The notes under the pieces were generated by a model. It did no database searches. It was given only the letters and a program-made list of their open reading frames with translations, and was not told the origin of the DNA. Made by a program: the position numbers and the translations under genes. From Petrotoga sp. 9PW.55.5.1 (GTDB lineage: Bacteria > Thermotogota > Thermotogae > Petrotogales > Petrotogaceae): DNA of 49,526 nucleotides. Of this stretch, positions 2,086 to 23,654 are shown one piece after another; within the stretch, counting starts at the first letter, position 1, and the number at the start of each line of letters is the position of its first letter. The stretch spans positions 79,053 through 128,578 of the forward strand of contig NZ_AUPM01000018.1 in assembly GCF_003265365.1 (NCBI RefSeq), written 5' to 3'.

Positions 2086-4086
2086 TTATTTCAAATATTT
2101 ATCAAACCATTGTGTTATTTCTTTCAGCCTTCTTATCCTATGTTTTGGTTTTCCACTTCTACTTAACTCATGGTTTTCTCCTCGAAACAGTACCAGTTTA
2201 GATTCAACTCCATTGTACTTAAGTGATGTGAACATCTGTAAGCCTTCAGCAAGCCAACAACGATAATCTTCTTCAGAGTGAATAAATAGGGTTGGAGTTT
2301 TTACTTTATCCGCATATTTCATTGGTGAATGAAACCATAATTTTTCATAATCATTCCACGGAGTCGATGCTTGTTGATCCTCAACAAAATAATATCCTAT
2401 ATCAGTAGTCCCAAATTTTGATATCCAATTAGCTATGCTCCTTTGAGAAGCTGCCGCTTTAAATCTATCCGTATGTCCTATTATCCAATTCGTCATATAT
2501 CCACCATATGAACCACCAGTTACACCTATTCTATTTTTATCTATAAAAGGATATTTTTCTAAAACTCTATCAACAAAATGCATTATATCTTCATAATCTA
2601 TCGTTCCATATTTCCCTCTTATATCGGCGAATTCATTTCCTCTTCCATCACTGCCTCTAGGATTACAAAAAAGAACTGTGTATCCTTCGTTAGCCCAATA
2701 TTGCATTTCATGAAAAAAAACTTCTCCACTATATACCGTCTTAGGTCCTCCGTGTATATCTAGTATAGCTGGATACTTTTTATTCTCTTCAAAATCAGTA
2801 GGTTTCATAATCCACCCTTCGATTTCAACATCGCCTTCGCCTAAAAAAGTTATTCTTTCAGGTTTTGACATCTTTTTTTCCTTAATAACCCACTCATTCA
2901 ATTCTGTCAACTGTTCTTCCTTATTTTCATCAAGCAAATACAGCTCTTGTAGTTTCACATCTCTCATTCCTACAAAGATAACTTTGCCATTAAATACATC
3001 AAAACCGTCTACAGAACCATTTTTTGTAGTTAATTTTTCTCTTTTGCCACTTTCATCTATTCTGTTTATATAAGAATTTCCCCACTCTGTTGTTTCAAAA
3101 TAAAAATAACTTCCTTCAACTTTGAAAGCATTATTAGAACCGTATCTACAATCAGAACCTACGGAACTCCACGTACTGTAATCAAAATCCGTTTCGATAT
3201 TTTTAACTTCTTTAGTTTGCATATTCATTAAATAAAATTTCGGATTTTCATTTATGCCATAACTTTTCATATCACTTCCTAAAAAGATAATATTACCATT
3301 GAAAAAGTCTGCATAAAAATAATTGAAAGGATCTTCGTGAGTTAATTTTTCTAAATTATTATTGTTTAAATCATATAAAAACAAATCGGATCTTATTTCC
3401 ATTTTATCTTTAAATGTATTAGATATGAAAAGGATTTTAGATTTTTCTTTGTTCAGTTTAAAACCTTCTACATTGGTTAATTCATCTGTTATTGGTTTCA
3501 TCTGATTATCATCTAAAGAAAACAAATACAATCTATTTCTTTTCTTATTGGTAAAACCCTGACCATTAGACCAATATGGAATTTCATCTAATACTTCGTA
3601 ATCTCTTTCTTCTTTAAAATCTTCTAACTTTTTTTCTTTCTCTTCACTGGATAATTTTTCAAAATCCTTATATTTTTCATCGTAAGATGCAGTTAATACA
3701 AACTTATTTTCTGAAATTGGTTCTATATCAGAAACAAAAAGAGGAATCTCAAAAAATTTTTCTGCCTCTCCTCCATAAATGTTAATCTTATAATATACAG
3801 TAAAGGGCTCTCCTTTTTCTTTTCTCTTTTTGTCTTTTTCATCTCTAATAGCTGAGAATAATATATTTTCATCGTCCATCCACACAAAAGAACTCTCTTT
3901 ATTAAAAGTAGTTAGTTTTCTGGACTTTTTATTATCAACGTCATACAACCAAATATTTGATAAATACTTGTTTTCATCTACGTCCATTTCGTGAACTACA
4001 TAAGCTAAATTCTTTCCATTAGGGGAAAATTTTGTCCCTGACAAAAACTTATACTTTGTAAAATCTTCCAAAGCTAGCTTTCCCAT
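2086..4086 (-). CDS. S9-family peptidase (acylaminoacyl-peptidase / prolyl oligopeptidase type)
   Basis: 666 residues. The N-terminal two-thirds is a beta-propeller of WD40-like TolB/PD40 repeats (for example NIWLYDVDNKKSRKLT near residue 40). The C-terminal third is an alpha/beta hydrolase. The catalytic triad is visible: nucleophile Ser526 in GGSYGGYM, Asp607 in HSEEDYR and His639 in GENHELS. The family cleaves short peptides, and no signal peptide is visible, so it is probably cytoplasmic. Start ATG 4086 follows a GGGAGGTAG site. The next gene upstream, an amidohydrolase, ends 22 bases before, which suggests an operon for peptide or amide scavenging. Confidence 0.9.
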   Translation of the reverse strand: MGKLALEDFTKYKFLSGTKFSPNGKNLAYVVHEMDVDENKYLSNIWLYDVDNKKSRKLTTFNKESSFVWMDDENILFSAIRDEKDKKRKEKGEPFTVYYKINIYGGEAEKFFEIPLFVSDIEPISENKFVLTASYDEKYKDFEKLSSEEKEKKLEDFKEERDYEVLDEIPYWSNGQGFTNKKRNRLYLFSLDDNQMKPITDELTNVEGFKLNKEKSKILFISNTFKDKMEIRSDLFLYDLNNNNLEKLTHEDPFNYFYADFFNGNIIFLGSDMKSYGINENPKFYLMNMQTKEVKNIETDFDYSTWSSVGSDCRYGSNNAFKVEGSYFYFETTEWGNSYINRIDESGKREKLTTKNGSVDGFDVFNGKVIFVGMRDVKLQELYLLDENKEEQLTELNEWVIKEKKMSKPERITFLGEGDVEIEGWIMKPTDFEENKKYPAILDIHGGPKTVYSGEVFFHEMQYWANEGYTVLFCNPRGSDGRGNEFADIRGKYGTIDYEDIMHFVDRVLEKYPFIDKNRIGVTGGSYGGYMTNWIIGHTDRFKAAASQRSIANWISKFGTTDIGYYFVEDQQASTPWNDYEKLWFHSPMKYADKVKTPTLFIHSEEDYRCWLAEGLQMFTSLKYNGVESKLVLFRGENHELSRSGKPKHRIRRLKEITQWFDKYLK

Positions 4087-4108: not shown

Positions 4109-5404
4109 TCATATTAGTGAATCTTCACTATACATTTCTGGCAATGATATTTCATCAAAAGGATTTTGATTAAAAATTAATGCCTTTTTTTCTATACTTT
4201 CTTCTCTATTAATATTATCAACTATTTCTGGGCTATAAGTTAGACGAAATAAAGAGTATTTGTAAGGAATACCCAATTCTTTCAATTTCTTCATATCTCT
4301 TAACCAATCTGGTTCTTCCACAGGTGCATCAGAAGATATAAAAAGAGGAATATTGTTTTTATACAATTCATAGAACTTAAATGCGTTATTGAGATTGTTA
4401 CCCAACCTACTTTTAATAAAAATCTTATCTGATTCTATAAACTGAGGTTGAACATCAATAATAAGATTGTATTTTTTAATTTTTTCAATCTGTTTTTCTT
4501 TTAATATTTGTGCGTGTATTATTCTATGTAGTAATTTAGGCTTAACTTCTTCAAAGACTTTCAGAATTTGTTGAACAGCTCCGTCTCCTATAGCATGCAT
4601 TGCCAAATGAAGACCTTTACTCTCACAAAATCTAACAATTTCATTCAGTTCGCTATCTTCCCACAATTTTTCCCCGAAAGTATTTGAGTCGTTATACTTA
4701 TCAATTAGGTAAGCTGTTCTTGCACCCAAAGAACCATCTAAATATATTTTAACACTTTTGAAGATTTTAAAATATCCATGATCATAATAATTTAAAAGTT
4801 GATCATAACTACTTACCGCAACTTTTTCATAAACAAAGAAATCAGTATCATTTAAAAATGGGAGTTCTTCTTTTGAAACTCCATGTAGATCATCTGAATG
4901 AACGAAGTTATAACCTTTTTTACTTAAATAAGTTTTTGCAGATTCATAATTATCTTTTATATTAGTAAAAGCACCGAAAGTTTCATAGAATCTGTCTATT
5001 GCTTTTTCTTTTAAAAAACCCTTTTCAAACTCTATATAATCTTCAAAATCTTTAAAATTAATCTGCTCAAACACTTTAGAATTAACTACTGCCTTATGAC
5101 CGCATCTTCTAACCAACATAATCGGAATATCTTCGCTTATATCGTCTAAAAACTTTTTATCAGGAATTGAAAATTCTTCTGACCAACCTCGTAAGATTAT
5201 TTTATCTGGATTCTTTTTCAATATATTAATTATAATTTCTTTTATTTCTGGTAAACTTTTATTTTCTAAAGAAGGTTGCACCAACTTTTCTCCAAATCCT
5301 AACAAATGGAGATGAGTGTCTGTAATGAAAGGTGTAACAAAAATATTTTTATTGTATTTGGTATTTATATATTTAAATTCGCCTTTTTTTGTAAGTTTAA
5401 ACAA
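4109..5404 (-). CDS. YtcJ-type amidohydrolase
   Basis: 431 residues, shorter than typical YtcJ proteins (about 530). The amidohydrolase metal motif DTHLHLLGFGE is near residue 29, followed by the family blocks DGSLGARTAYL, LAMHAIGDGAVQQIL, HRIIHAQIL and the late SSDAPVEEPDW, which supplies the last metal-binding Asp. The enzymes hydrolyse amide bonds in small molecules; the substrate is unknown. The start is TTG 5404, nine bases after AAGAGG, and no ATG fits the conserved N-terminus. It lies between a small ORF and the S9 peptidase on the same strand, all probably read from the promoter at 5675-5703. Confidence 0.85.
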   Translation of the reverse strand: MFKLTKKGEFKYINTKYNKNIFVTPFITDTHLHLLGFGEKLVQPSLENKSLPEIKEIIINILKKNPDKIILRGWSEEFSIPDKKFLDDISEDIPIMLVRRCGHKAVVNSKVFEQINFKDFEDYIEFEKGFLKEKAIDRFYETFGAFTNIKDNYESAKTYLSKKGYNFVHSDDLHGVSKEELPFLNDTDFFVYEKVAVSSYDQLLNYYDHGYFKIFKSVKIYLDGSLGARTAYLIDKYNDSNTFGEKLWEDSELNEIVRFCESKGLHLAMHAIGDGAVQQILKVFEEVKPKLLHRIIHAQILKEKQIEKIKKYNLIIDVQPQFIESDKIFIKSRLGNNLNNAFKFYELYKNNIPLFISSDAPVEEPDWLRDMKKLKELGIPYKYSLFRLTYSPEIVDNINREESIEKKALIFNQNPFDEISLPEMYSEDSLI

Positions 5405-5509: not shown

Positions 5510-5623
5510 TCACAGTTTTCTGATGTTTTCTAAATAAAAATAAAATAATTCATCCGAGAGTTGGTCGAACCCGGTGTAATAAGATTCAACCTTTTTGATT
5601 TTTTTATTCGGTCTTCTCAACAT
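5510..5623 (-). CDS. Small basic ORF of 37 residues, unknown
   Basis: A short frame with good context. ATG 5623 follows a GGGGGAG ribosome site at 5631-5637 and ends in TGA at 5510. The product begins MLRRPNKKIKKVESYYTGFD and has a basic head and an aromatic tail (ELFYFYLENIRKL). A promoter with ideal spacing lies about 50 bases upstream. I recognise no family. It could be a small regulatory protein or a leader peptide of the amidohydrolase operon, which starts about 105 bases downstream. The strong ribosome site and promoter are the support; coding is not proven. Confidence 0.55.
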   Translation of the reverse strand: MLRRPNKKIKKVESYYTGFDQLSDELFYFYLENIRKL

Positions 5624-5674
5624 TTTAAACTCCCCCTTTAAAAATTTTGTTATTTATTTTAAAATTCTGATAAT

Positions 5675-20402: not shown

Positions 20403-20440
20403 TTCTTATATACCTCCACGGTTTATTATATAGCAAAGAT

Positions 20441-20537
20441 GGCTGGGTTACCCTGCTGCACCTAAGAATCACCGCTTATGGCTGCTCCCTTCCGGGCCTG
20501 ACCAGATTCACGGGTTCCTATTGCGCAGGACCCAGCC
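20441..20537 (-). ncRNA. ffs: Bacterial signal recognition particle RNA (4.5S)
   Basis: A 97-base hairpin closed by GGCTGGGT/ACCCAGCC, with the universal tip read on the minus strand as GGTCAGGCCCGGAAGGGAGC, a GGAA tetraloop and the asymmetric internal loop bound by Ffh. It guides membrane-protein ribosomes to FtsY. The ends may extend a few bases beyond the stem. The methyltransferase gene begins 38 bases downstream and I see no strong terminator between them. Confidence 0.95.
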
Positions 20538-20586: not shown

Positions 20587-20682
20587 CTTTGGATTTTAAA
20601 AGATTTGTTAATGGCTAATTTAATTATCTTATGTATTATAAAAATGTGTTATTATTTTTATAGGGGATAAAAAAATTATACT

Positions 20683-20795
20683 TACCCACTTCAGAAATAG
20701 CAAAAAATAGTGGTTAAGCTGAGGTACAAAAGATTAAATAATAAGGAAAGAAGAACTAAAATATTGAATTCCAAGGAAAATGCTCTTTGAAAAAG
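20683..20795 (+). repeat. Direct repeat, copy 1 (about 113 bp)
   Basis: Begins TACCCACTTCAGAAATAGC and ends ..CTCTTTGAAAAAG. It matches 21851-21962 with a handful of mismatches and a one-base length difference. An imperfect inverted repeat, TACCcaCTTCAG/CTGAGGTA, lies within the first 45 bases. The two copies bracket the attC-flanked cassette. The 45 bases to the attC-like site show nothing else. Confidence 0.85.
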
Positions 20796-20840
20796 TCAAA
20801 AAACTTAAAGAAAGATAAAATGATAAATGGCAAACCCATC

Positions 20841-20929
20841 GCCTAACTCAGCATAAAAGGTTCGTGCCTAACGCCACTCACCCAAATGCCGCCTTCTGCG
20901 GAACTTCTTTTATGCGGGGAACGTTATCT
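20841..20929 (+). repeat. attC-like recombination site 1 (upstream of cassette)
   Basis: 89 bases with the integron attC architecture: R'' GCCTAAC (20841-20847), L'' GCATAAAAG (20851-20859), L' CTTTTATGC (20907-20915) and R' GTTATCT (20923-20929). L'' and L' are perfectly complementary over nine bases. R'' is not the complement of R', as expected when the R' core belongs to the following cassette. The ORF starts 35 bases later. Confidence 0.7.
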
Positions 20930-21833
20930 GTAATAGGTTGCCTTAATTACTTGGAGGTTTTAAATGTTTACGACAGAAAAACTTGAGCTCAAAGATTTTT
21001 ATCTACTTGAAGAATTTCAAATTGCATATTTGCCGGGATGGATTCCAGAAAGAGAATTTGCAGTAGCGTTGTGGGCTAATCCATCTATAGAAGACTTTCT
21101 AAAGAGAAAATGTCCTGTAATAACCGATTTCATCAATAGGATTAAGAAAGAAAATGAACCAATCAAGGACAACAACGAACTTGCTATTTGCATCAAGAAA
21201 GTCCTTCAAACTTGTTCTGATATTTTAATCTACAACAAGTGCCCAGAAGTTTATGATAAACTGGAATTTCATAATTGGGATTTCAAAGAGATAACATCTA
21301 TAACATCTTTGGATGCCAAAATTATATTAGATGGAGGTTCAGGAACAGGGCATGTCGCATTAGAAGCAGCTAAATATGCAAGATATGTTTTCGCAATGGA
21401 ACCTGTCACAAGACTTAGACAATTCATAAAAGAAAAGGCTAAAAAGCTAAAAACGGACAACGTATATGTGATTGACGGGTTTCTCCATTCAATCCCTTTA
21501 CCTGATAACTTTATAGATGTACTCATCACTTCCCACGCATTGGGATGGCAGCTAAAAGACGAGCTTATGGAATTTGAACGAGTTGTTAAAAATGAAGGGT
21601 ATATTATCCATTGTCCAGCGACAGTCGATAACCCTTCTGACCAGTCAACACATAATGAACTATTGAAATACAGTTATAGTTTTGATAAATATAAAGAAGC
21701 GGATGGATGGAAAAGAAAATACTGGAAGAAAGTAATAAAACGAAGATGAGATTTAAACGGCAACCTACAGCAGATAACAGCGTGTTTGCGATGCTTCGCT
21801 AAATCCTTCGGGACTTCGCAAACACGCGAGACG
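20924..21833 (+). mobile_element. Integron-type gene cassette carrying a methyltransferase gene
   Basis: The predicted cassette runs from the cut point G/TTATCT at 20924 to the G of GTTGTCC at 21833, about 910 bp, with one ORF and its own attC at the end. The cassette head (G)TTATCT is the exact complement of the R'' AGATAAC of its own attC at 21772-21778, which is the relation expected of a circularisable cassette. No integron integrase gene is in the window, so it would be a stranded cassette. No other cassette is visible beside it. Confidence 0.65.
20964..21749 (+). CDS. Class I SAM-dependent methyltransferase (cassette-borne)
   Basis: 261 residues. The first 110 residues are not recognised. 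Motif I follows at IILDGGSGTGHVALEAAKYA (residues about 120-139), then the acidic FAMEPVTRLRQF and PLPDNFIDVLITSHALG, a methyltransferase-11-like core with the small-molecule type of motif IV. The substrate is unknown. Start ATG 20964 is seven bases after GGAGG and 35 bases from the attC-like site, typical for a cassette ORF. The protein is complete and no defect was seen. Cassettes of this kind usually carry single promoterless accessory genes. Confidence 0.8.
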   Translation: MFTTEKLELKDFYLLEEFQIAYLPGWIPEREFAVALWANPSIEDFLKRKCPVITDFINRIKKENEPIKDNNELAICIKKVLQTCSDILIYNKCPEVYDKLEFHNWDFKEITSITSLDAKIILDGGSGTGHVALEAAKYARYVFAMEPVTRLRQFIKEKAKKLKTDNVYVIDGFLHSIPLPDNFIDVLITSHALGWQLKDELMEFERVVKNEGYIIHCPATVDNPSDQSTHNELLKYSYSFDKYKEADGWKRKYWKKVIKRR

Positions 21834-21839
21834 TTGTCC
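21772..21839 (+). repeat. attC-like recombination site 2 (cassette's own)
   Basis: 68 bases: R'' AGATAAC (21772-21778), L'' GCGTGTTTGCGA (21780-21791), L' TCGCAAACACGC (21816-21827) and R' GTTGTCC (21833-21839). The L arms are perfect over 12 bases. R'' pairs with the GTTATCT that heads this cassette rather than with GTTGTCC, which would belong to the next cassette or to the flanking site. Confidence 0.75.
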
Positions 21840-21850
21840 GAAATTGCAAA

Positions 21851-21962
21851 TACCCACTTCAGAAATAGCAAAAAATAGTGGTTAAGCTGAGGTAAAAAAG
21901 ATTAAATAAAAGGAAAGAAGAAATAAAATATTGAATTCCAAGGAAAATGTTCTTTGAAGAAG
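21851..21962 (+). repeat. Direct repeat, copy 2 (about 112 bp)
   Basis: Second copy of the 20683-20795 sequence. It begins 11 bases after the attC-like site and runs to TCTTTGAAGAAG, just before the truncated transposase at 21976. Confidence 0.85.
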
Positions 21963-21975
21963 GAACGAAAAGTGT

Positions 21976-22185
21976 TCATTTAACCTTTTGAACGAACAAA
22001 GCCTTAAGTAAAGAATGACGAGAATAACCAGTTCTACCGATCCTAGGATTGTTAAATTCAGGAACAGCAGACCAATCTATTTGATTTATCAAATCGAGTA
22101 AATATTTAAACTCAGAATTTTTATTAAAATAATCGGAATAAACAAAGTCGAAATACAGTTGATTGGATTCAGAATGAAGAGACAT
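21976..22185 (-). pseudogene. N-terminal fragment of an IS5/IS1182-type transposase
   Basis: About 69 residues from ATG 22185, which follows AAGGAGG (22194-22200). The end GRTGYSRHSLLKALFVQKV is the DUF772/InsH-like N-terminal domain of IS4/IS5/IS1182-type transposases. The catalytic DDE part is missing: the frame ends beside repeat copy 2. The gene was probably cut by the event that brought in the repeat-cassette block. Its promoter region is the tandem duplication 22231-22409. Confidence 0.75.
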
Positions 22186-22230
22186 CTGGTTGACCTCCTT
22201 ACGGGATAATAAATTTGTGGTACCAAATAG

Positions 22231-22409
22231 ATTATAACGTAGGGAGGTAACCACTTCAAACACAAGGTATTAAAAGTTAGTTAAATTCTGTGTTTCGGAA
22301 TTTCTAAAGACAGTAACATTGTAACGTAGGGAGGTAACCACTTCAAACACAAGGTATTAAAAGTTAGTTAAATTCTGTGTTTTGGAATTTCTGAAGACAG
22401 TAAAATTAT
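22231..22409 (-). repeat. Tandem 87 bp duplication carrying two promoters
   Basis: The unit 22236-22322 is repeated at 22323-22409 almost without change. On the minus strand each copy has TTGAAG, a 17-base spacer and a -10: TATAAT at 22236-22231 in one, TACAAT at 22323-22318 in the other. Both point at the truncated transposase. Each unit also holds an inverted repeat AAACACA/TGTGTTT. The duplication lies upstream of the nitroreductase relic on the other strand. Confidence 0.85.
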
Positions 22410-22431
22410 ACTTAGAAGGAGGTATCTAAAT

Positions 22432-22800
22432 TTGGAAATACTTAAAGAAATTTTGAATAGAAGAAGCATTAGAAAGTTCAAAAATCAAGAAGTTTCCAAT
22501 GAAATAGTAAAGCAACTCTTAAGAGCCGCCATGCAAGCTCCCTCTGCAAACAACGAACAGCCCTGGGAATTTATTGTCGTTAATAAGAAAGAAATTCTCG
22601 AAAAGATTTCAGAGGTTCATCCTTATGCTAAGATGGCTAAAGAGGCAGCAGTGGCAATTATAGTTTGTGGAGATCTCAAAAAAGAAGTTTCAAAAGGAAG
22701 ATGGGTTCAAGATTGTAGCGCCGCAATAGGATACCCAAACGAAGATAAAAGATACGAAGATAGATATAAAGAAGAAAGGGTTCATTATAACGAATGGTAA
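22432..22800 (+). pseudogene. Nitroreductase with internal deletion
   Basis: 122 residues against about 165-170 in the family. The N-terminal half is normal: RRSIRKFKNQEVSN, AAMQAPSANNEQPWEF and FMN contacts. After WVQDCSAA the sequence jumps directly to IGYPNEDKRYEDRYKEERVHYN, which is the normal C-terminus. About 45 residues, covering the middle block with the LGLGAVW-type motif, are missing with the frame kept. The protein would lack part of the FMN site and dimer core and is probably not functional. Start is TTG 22432 after AAGGAGG. Confidence 0.75.
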
Positions 22801-22801
22801 A

Positions 22802-22829
22802 AAAAAGGCCTTATATTAAAGGCCTTTTT
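22802..22829. terminator. Bidirectional terminator
   Basis: AAAAAGGCCTT/AAGGCCTTTTT with a six-base loop, placed between the converging nitroreductase relic and aldo/keto reductase genes. Confidence 0.85.
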
Positions 22830-23654
22830 CTAAAAATCATCAGGATGGGCTCCAAATCTTTCATTACGATCTAAACCATCTATAATTCTCATCTCTTCTT
22901 TGGATAACTCAAAATCAAATATGTCAGAGTTTTCCTTGATTCTTTCTTCATGTACAGATTTTGGAATTGTTACAACTTCATGTTGTAAATCCCATCTTAA
23001 AACTATTTGAACAGGAGTTTTGTTATACTTTTTTGCAATATCTTGTATCTCTCTAATAGAATTAACTCTTCCTCTCATTAAAGGGCTCCAAGCTTCAAGT
23101 TGTATCTTATTTTCTTTACAAAATTCTAAAAGTTCTCCCTGTAATAAATAAGGATGAAACTCTACTTGATTTACCATCGGGATTATTTCACAATTGTTAA
23201 TAACATCTTGCAAATGATGTATCAAAAAATTACTAACTCCTATTGCCTTTACTCTGCCTTCTTTATAAATTTTTTCAAGAGCTTTCCATGTTTCCAAATA
23301 TTTCCCACTTACTGGCCAATGAATTAAATATAAATCCAAATAATCTGTTTGGAGCTTTTTTAAAGAACTATCAAAGGATTTAAGTGTATTATCGAACCCT
23401 TGATTTGTATTCCAGACTTTCGAGGTTATAAACAACTCTTCTCTTGGAACGTTACTCTCCTCAATAGCTTTCCCTATTTCTTCCTCGTTTTGGTACATTT
23501 CAGCAGTATCGATAAGTCTATAACCAATATTCAAAGCAAATTTCAGCCCTTCTTTCAACCCATTCCCTTGAGCCTTATAAGTACCATAGCCCAACCAAGG
23601 CATTTTAACTCCATTTGCCAATTCAGTTTTATCAAAAATACTTGTGATCTTCAT
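22830..23654 (-). CDS. Aldo/keto reductase
   Basis: 274 residues from ATG 23654 with GGGAG upstream; earlier in-frame starts lie within the end of the thymidine kinase gene. It is an NADPH-dependent (beta/alpha)8 barrel. The catalytic tetrad is visible: Asp and Tyr in LIDTAEMYQNE, Lys in FITSKVW and His in YLIHWP. The AKR signatures GVSNFLIHHLQ and IPKSVHEERIKEN (cofactor binding) follow. Closest in pattern to 2,5-diketo-gluconate reductase-like AKR5 enzymes; substrate unknown. It begins 18 bases after tdk and is probably cotranscribed. Confidence 0.92.
   Translation of the reverse strand: MKITSIFDKTELANGVKMPWLGYGTYKAQGNGLKEGLKFALNIGYRLIDTAEMYQNEEEIGKAIEESNVPREELFITSKVWNTNQGFDNTLKSFDSSLKKLQTDYLDLYLIHWPVSGKYLETWKALEKIYKEGRVKAIGVSNFLIHHLQDVINNCEIIPMVNQVEFHPYLLQGELLEFCKENKIQLEAWSPLMRGRVNSIREIQDIAKKYNKTPVQIVLRWDLQHEVVTIPKSVHEERIKENSDIFDFELSKEEMRIIDGLDRNERFGAHPDDF

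Follow-up and report, generated by a model that had tools for sequence, protein, structure and literature searches.

A probable stranded gene cassette in Petrotoga, from an integron-like system unlike known integrons

A strain-specific block in the genome of the heat-loving bacterium Petrotoga sp. 9PW.55.5.1 is best explained as a stranded, CALIN-like cassette that belongs to an integron-like system distinct from the integrons known so far, a reading to which we give a probability of about 77%. The block lies within the stretch of 49,526 nucleotides analyzed here, which we call the window, and carries one gene between two hairpin sites (Table 1). An initial annotation had described two attC-shaped sites bracketing a complete methyltransferase ORF, and its coordinates and letters proved accurate. 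The two sites belong to a family with covarying stems, cross-matching ends and tandem arrays, and in related loci such arrays are linked to an attI-like site and a tyrosine recombinase gene without the I2 segment.

Table 1. Features of the cassette and of the block that contains it (window positions).
Feature	Position	Strand	Details
Strain-specific block with cassette and IS remnants	20612..22830		2,219 bp; all five congeners without block
IS left-end remnant	20683..20825	+	Cuts short the cassette before site 1; 96% match to copies in G002 and at G000:C18:35117
attC-like site 1	20841..20929	+	R'' GCCTAAC 20841-20847; R' GTTATCT 20923-20929, cassette head from its TT onward
Site 1 arms	20851-20859; 20907-20915	+	L'' GCATAAAAG; L' CTTTTATGC; from sequence
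Site 1 TT bulge	20905-20906	+	On the L' arm
Gene cassette	20924..21833	+	Predicted 910-bp circle; head/tail cross-match; G/TT cut in each R' presumed from known attC biology
GGAGG ribosome-binding site of cassette gene	20953..20957	+	From sequence
Cassette gene, class I SAM-dependent methyltransferase	20964..21749	+	261 aa, complete; Pfam Methyltransf_11, E 1.5e-10
attC-like site 2	21772..21839	+	R'' AGATAAC 21772-21778; R' GTTGTCC 21833-21839
Site 2 arms	21780-21791; 21816-21827	+	GCGTGTTTGCGA / TCGCAAACACGC; 12 bp, perfect pairing
Head of lost next cassette	21834..21848	+	15 bases, TTGTCCGAAATTGCA; GnAAT cassette-head motif as at other sites
Internally deleted copy of same IS (MITE-like)	21849..22316		IS homology begins 21848/21849
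Probable transposase remnant inside deleted IS copy	21976-22263	-	No Pfam match
Further IS-derived repeat	22316-22424		In window
Truncated nitroreductase gene	22432-22800		Within block

Both sites follow the general integron site plan, with R'' and R' carrying AAC and GTT, L arms and a variable loop. The R'' of site 2 (AGATAAC) is the complement of the head of site 1 (GTTATCT) at 7/7 positions, and the extended match between head and tail covers 17/20 bases (GTTATCTGTAATAGGTTGCC against the complement of GGCAACCTACAGCAGATAAC). By the same logic, the R'' of site 1 points to a lost upstream cassette that started GTTAGGC. A search for the geometry R''-3-L9...L9-7-R' with perfect L arms returned exactly two matches in the window, which are sites 1 and 2; the same search gave 0 sites in 200 mononucleotide shuffles (one strand). 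We built two covariance models, R1 from six sites and R2 from 48, which scored site 1 at 64.5 and 72.3 bits and site 2 at 55.0 and 51.0 bits, respectively, with the window sites included in the training of both. Covariance E-values are rough. Since this overlap affects both models, we also made a leave-window-out profile from 46 related sites. It recovered site 1 at E 1.3e-15 and site 2 at E 7e-6, and its next best match in the 49.5 kb had an E-value of 2.3. Folding of the bottom strand gave z-scores of -1.9 and -3.2 for the two sites. An Rfam scan at gathering thresholds returned only an SRP RNA and one tRNA, with no attC match.

At the E <= 0.001 threshold, R2 found the family in 15 of the 103 genomes of the phylum, and R1 recovered it in other phyla too. 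Arrays with three to six members were found in G062, G013, G005, G003, G188, G103 and G238. The stems covary strongly, and in the L arms structure is conserved more than the letters. Across 48 aligned sites, 83.8% of cells pair (shuffled, 72.9%; slid, 29-46%), and two-sided changes appear in 16 of the 20 stem pairs, including 12 of the 13 pairs in the L arms. The inner AAC/GTT pairs are almost invariant and the outer three are frequently broken, which is expected if the outer bases of R' belong to the next cassette. Spacing is regular, with 3 nt between R'' and L'' in 45/48 sites and 7 nt between L' and R' in 41/48, and a 2-nt bulge on the L' arm is conserved (T in 41/48 and T in 48/48).

The genome itself holds a second array, on contig C49 (L096), with sites at 4315-4389 and about 5548-5626 that follow the cross-match rule. 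The cargo there is a gene like the candidate defense family PDC-S11 (nuclease). Genes for TIR, AbiJ, HSDR_N, Thoeris ThsB-like, NUDIX and HicB proteins are carried in other arrays. Locus L104 (G062:C1, 3594-9332), in another genus of the phylum, has six sites with ThsB-like TIR, NUDIX and HSDR_N cargo; L160 (G238:C83, 832-7324), in another phylum, also has six sites, with heads that are mostly GTTAGGC or GATAGGC.

The initial annotation had treated the match between one site's R'' and the preceding site's R' as the signature of a cassette. A control bears this out: in a Vibrio superintegron, 21 of 22 pairs have an R'' that matches the R' of the preceding site, against 3 in which it matches the R' of its own site. 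Within the family, R'' fully matches the R' of the previous site in 19/34 consecutive pairs and its own R' in 5/34. Random pairing gave a mean of 3.6 and a maximum of 12 in 20,000 trials. The full match is missing in the other 15/34 pairs, which likely reflects missed or decayed sites in between; at L101, the expected R'' was found at a missed site between a non-matching pair.

The claim that these are attCs stands for the architecture and fails for the covariance model of ordinary attCs. This model, R3, was built from 24 attCs of Vibrio and class-1 integrons only. In the Vibrio array it detects 34 sites, and beside a true IntI gene in G188 (L147) it detects six. It found neither window site, even with filters off, and matched nothing else in the family except for one weak match. 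By the refutation criterion of the initial annotation itself, the window sites are therefore not ordinary attCs, and we treat them as members of a separate attC-like family.

All five congeners lack the block, and in each of them the sequence equivalent to window position 20611 runs into 22831, give or take a few bases. No congener showed the clean loss of the cassette by itself (20923-21834) that the initial annotation had proposed to look for; what is missing is the whole 2,219 bp. None of the five has the cassette methyltransferase gene. IS sequence cuts off the cassette region on both sides, and this accounts for the loss of the outer cassettes. The IS-derived repeats of the window (20683-20825, 21849-22316 and 22316-22424) have many relatives across the genus. 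A small SRP RNA (Rfam RF00169, 70 bits) lies just upstream of the block at 20438-20537 on the minus strand, and in one congener a lone family site (L047, 5026-5114) is separated from the same SRP locus by about 2.3 kb.

The closest relatives of the methyltransferase are 58-59% identical and come from WOR-3 and Dehalococcoidales MAGs; we looked for family sites flanking those relatives and found none. A metagenomic contig (L025) has two sites, at 1104-1198 and 2960-3033, whose R' starts with ATT instead of GTT, and this pair adjoins a fragment of the same methyltransferase. The window had no plasmid match. The initial annotation had also reported no integrase, and the search of the whole genome bears this out: no IntI was found, and a PF13495 search gave no match either. 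The two sites lie 843 bp apart. If such sites count as attC, the block is a CALIN as proposed, since that term covers at least two attCs less than 4 kb apart without intI. A recombinase on contig C60 of the same genome was considered as a candidate and dropped as Xer-like.

Recombinase genes lie upstream of family sites, in the same orientation, at seven loci in six genomes, one of them in the phylum: G188:C55 (3 sites), G188:C202, G059:C19, G270:C9, G103:C82 (3 sites), G362:C1 and G263:C5. At E <= 1e-30, G059 has the phylum's single integron-integrase-like gene, which sits in an array of family sites and has two internal stops. Its contig is native, with a SecD 92% identical to that of a same-genus genome. 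The linked genes in the other five genomes are relatives of this one. In all linked recombinases that could be compared, the 45-residue, IntI-specific I2 segment is replaced by 7-8 residues. The linked recombinases score 208-226 bits against TIGR02249 (integrase_gron), under its curated cut-off of 265, and 234-240 bits against NF040815, their best NCBIfam match, over its cut-off of 220. By TIGR02249, the two true IntI genes of G188 score 467 and 439 bits. In contrast to the plain integron reading of the initial annotation, the family is linked to this I2-less recombinase and not to a canonical IntI. In the recombinase tree, which is weakly resolved at depth, G059 is not grouped with the other linked recombinases, and the tree does not fix their relation to IntI.

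Behind the recombinase gene is an attI-like site with the core GAACnA-GTTRNNY-GnAAT and, in several loci, an inverted repeat, TATATCCGAAC...GTTCGGATAT. This core follows the gene in 8/8 close relatives and in 0/18 distant ones with testable sequence (G278 had none). The recombinase of G108 has neither sites nor the core. The attI-like head matches the R'' of the first downstream site fully (4/4) in five loci (G059, G188 twice, G270, G103), and in G362 it matches the R'' at an exact site 1.8 kb further on. The general integron plan, with attI next to the recombinase gene and joined to the first cassette, is thus found in the related loci and not in the window.

Could the sites be lineage-specific attCs of an ordinary integron, with a canonical IntI that acts in trans or was lost, and the I2-less recombinase just a neighbor or cargo? 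Canonical IntI1 accepts very diverse attCs (PMC8618304), the cross-match rule is identical in ordinary integrons, and the top matches of R2 in control arrays are genuine Vibrio attCs, though at weak scores of just 14-15 bits. Yet no canonical IntI over the cut-off was found in G059, G270, G362, G103 or G263. G188 holds both systems, and its canonical IntI loci have ordinary attCs and no family sites. In all 8 close relatives, moreover, the I2-less gene is directly followed by the attI-like site. We consider this explanation unlikely. We judge it equally doubtful that the I2-less recombinase uses the sites as double-stranded DNA, in the manner of Xer, with the hairpin serving some other purpose. 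The NF040815 scores against those for TIGR02249 fit such an enzyme, and the attI-like inverted repeats resemble double-strand Xer-type sites. What argues for the hairpin itself as the recognized form is that the L arms keep their structure over their sequence, and that the 2-nt bulge is conserved.

If the look of a cassette were coincidental, the sites could be transcription terminators or copies of a REP-like palindrome, for both are strong hairpins that fold better than most shuffles, and site 2 comes right after a gene. No T run follows the hairpins, and the presence of the gene varies. A terminator or repeat would have no use for AAC/GTT ends that stay fixed while the bases outside them vary, for the cross-match or for attI-like heads. 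We discarded both readings on the cross-match rule and regard them as very improbable.

In the cassette reading, which we prefer, the family sites would act as single-strand hairpin recombination sites, much as attCs do. A tyrosine recombinase would pair two such sites, or one site and the attI-like site, and probably cleave the R' core (GTTRNNY) at its G/TT step, so that a circle of one gene and its site is excised or inserted. Because gene and site would move together as this circle, each R'' would remain complementary to the head of its own cassette. The likely recombinase is the IntI-like enzyme without I2 that other genomes encode upstream of co-oriented arrays. The Petrotoga genome has no copy of it, which suggests that the cassette was captured elsewhere or that the platform was lost, and IS elements would have cut away the neighboring cassettes in a later step. 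Against this reading, recombination is deduced from sequence, and the sole array-side copy of the recombinase in the phylum, in G059, has stops. IntI is also reported to need I2 for its activity (Messier and Roy 2001, cited in PMC9668308), so an I2-less enzyme may be unable to handle hairpin sites. The 15 consecutive pairs short of a full match and the position of G059 in the tree also weigh against the reading, as does the restriction of R3 to Vibrio and class-1 sites.

The family shares much with integrons and CALINs such as the Vibrio superintegron and class 1: one-gene cassettes, co-oriented tandem arrays, R''-L''-loop-L'-R' sites with AAC/GTT, the cross-match rule, an attI-like first site, and cargo rich in defense-like genes. 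It differs in its 7-nt L'-R' spacer and in the TT bulge on L', whereas the bulges of ordinary attCs are on L''. Its sites are missed by the ordinary attC model, its recombinase lacks I2, and the recombinase gene runs toward the array. In the Treponema reverse integron (PMC3607928), intI is likewise transcribed toward attI and the cassettes; as described, though, the L box of its attCs shows the usual protruding G, and its enzymes are classed as IntI, whereas I2 is absent here. XerA, XerC and XerD (NF040815, TIGR02224, TIGR02225) share the catalytic domain and the lack of I2; the recombinases described here are distinguished by their linkage to an attI-like site and arrays of hairpin sites, and by a segment of about 90 additional residues at the N-terminus. 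In archaeal integrons (PMC9668308), too, attI directly follows the integrase gene and many CALINs are found in MAGs, but archaeal IntIs retain the additional domain.

The published lists of integron-carrying phyla consulted here do not include Thermotogota (PMC8618304, PMC9024848). Our full-text literature search found no report of integrons in this phylum; subscription papers were outside its scope, and an earlier description is possible. The remark that integrons are unfamiliar in this phylum thus stands for the literature and falls short for the genomes, in which family arrays exist, one of them beside a broken recombinase gene. Acquisition of I2 has been proposed as the origin of integron integrases and of single-strand hairpin recombination, with intermediates said to be lacking (PMC7790495). 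An I2-less recombinase beside its own attI-like site and hairpin arrays makes this idea directly testable. We lean toward the view that a distinct system extends over several phyla, this one among them, in which I2-less tyrosine recombinases use hairpin sites and an attI-like site to capture and shuffle cassettes, as either a surviving pre-I2 stage of integron evolution or an independent solution. In practice, the presence of I2 serves to define IntI (PMC9176274), and surveys that require I2 or ordinary attC models would miss the family arrays. Our results suggest that the integron has a second version that has so far been overlooked. If this is true, the phylum would be added to the published lists of integron carriers, and the family would represent an additional reservoir of defense-like cassettes.
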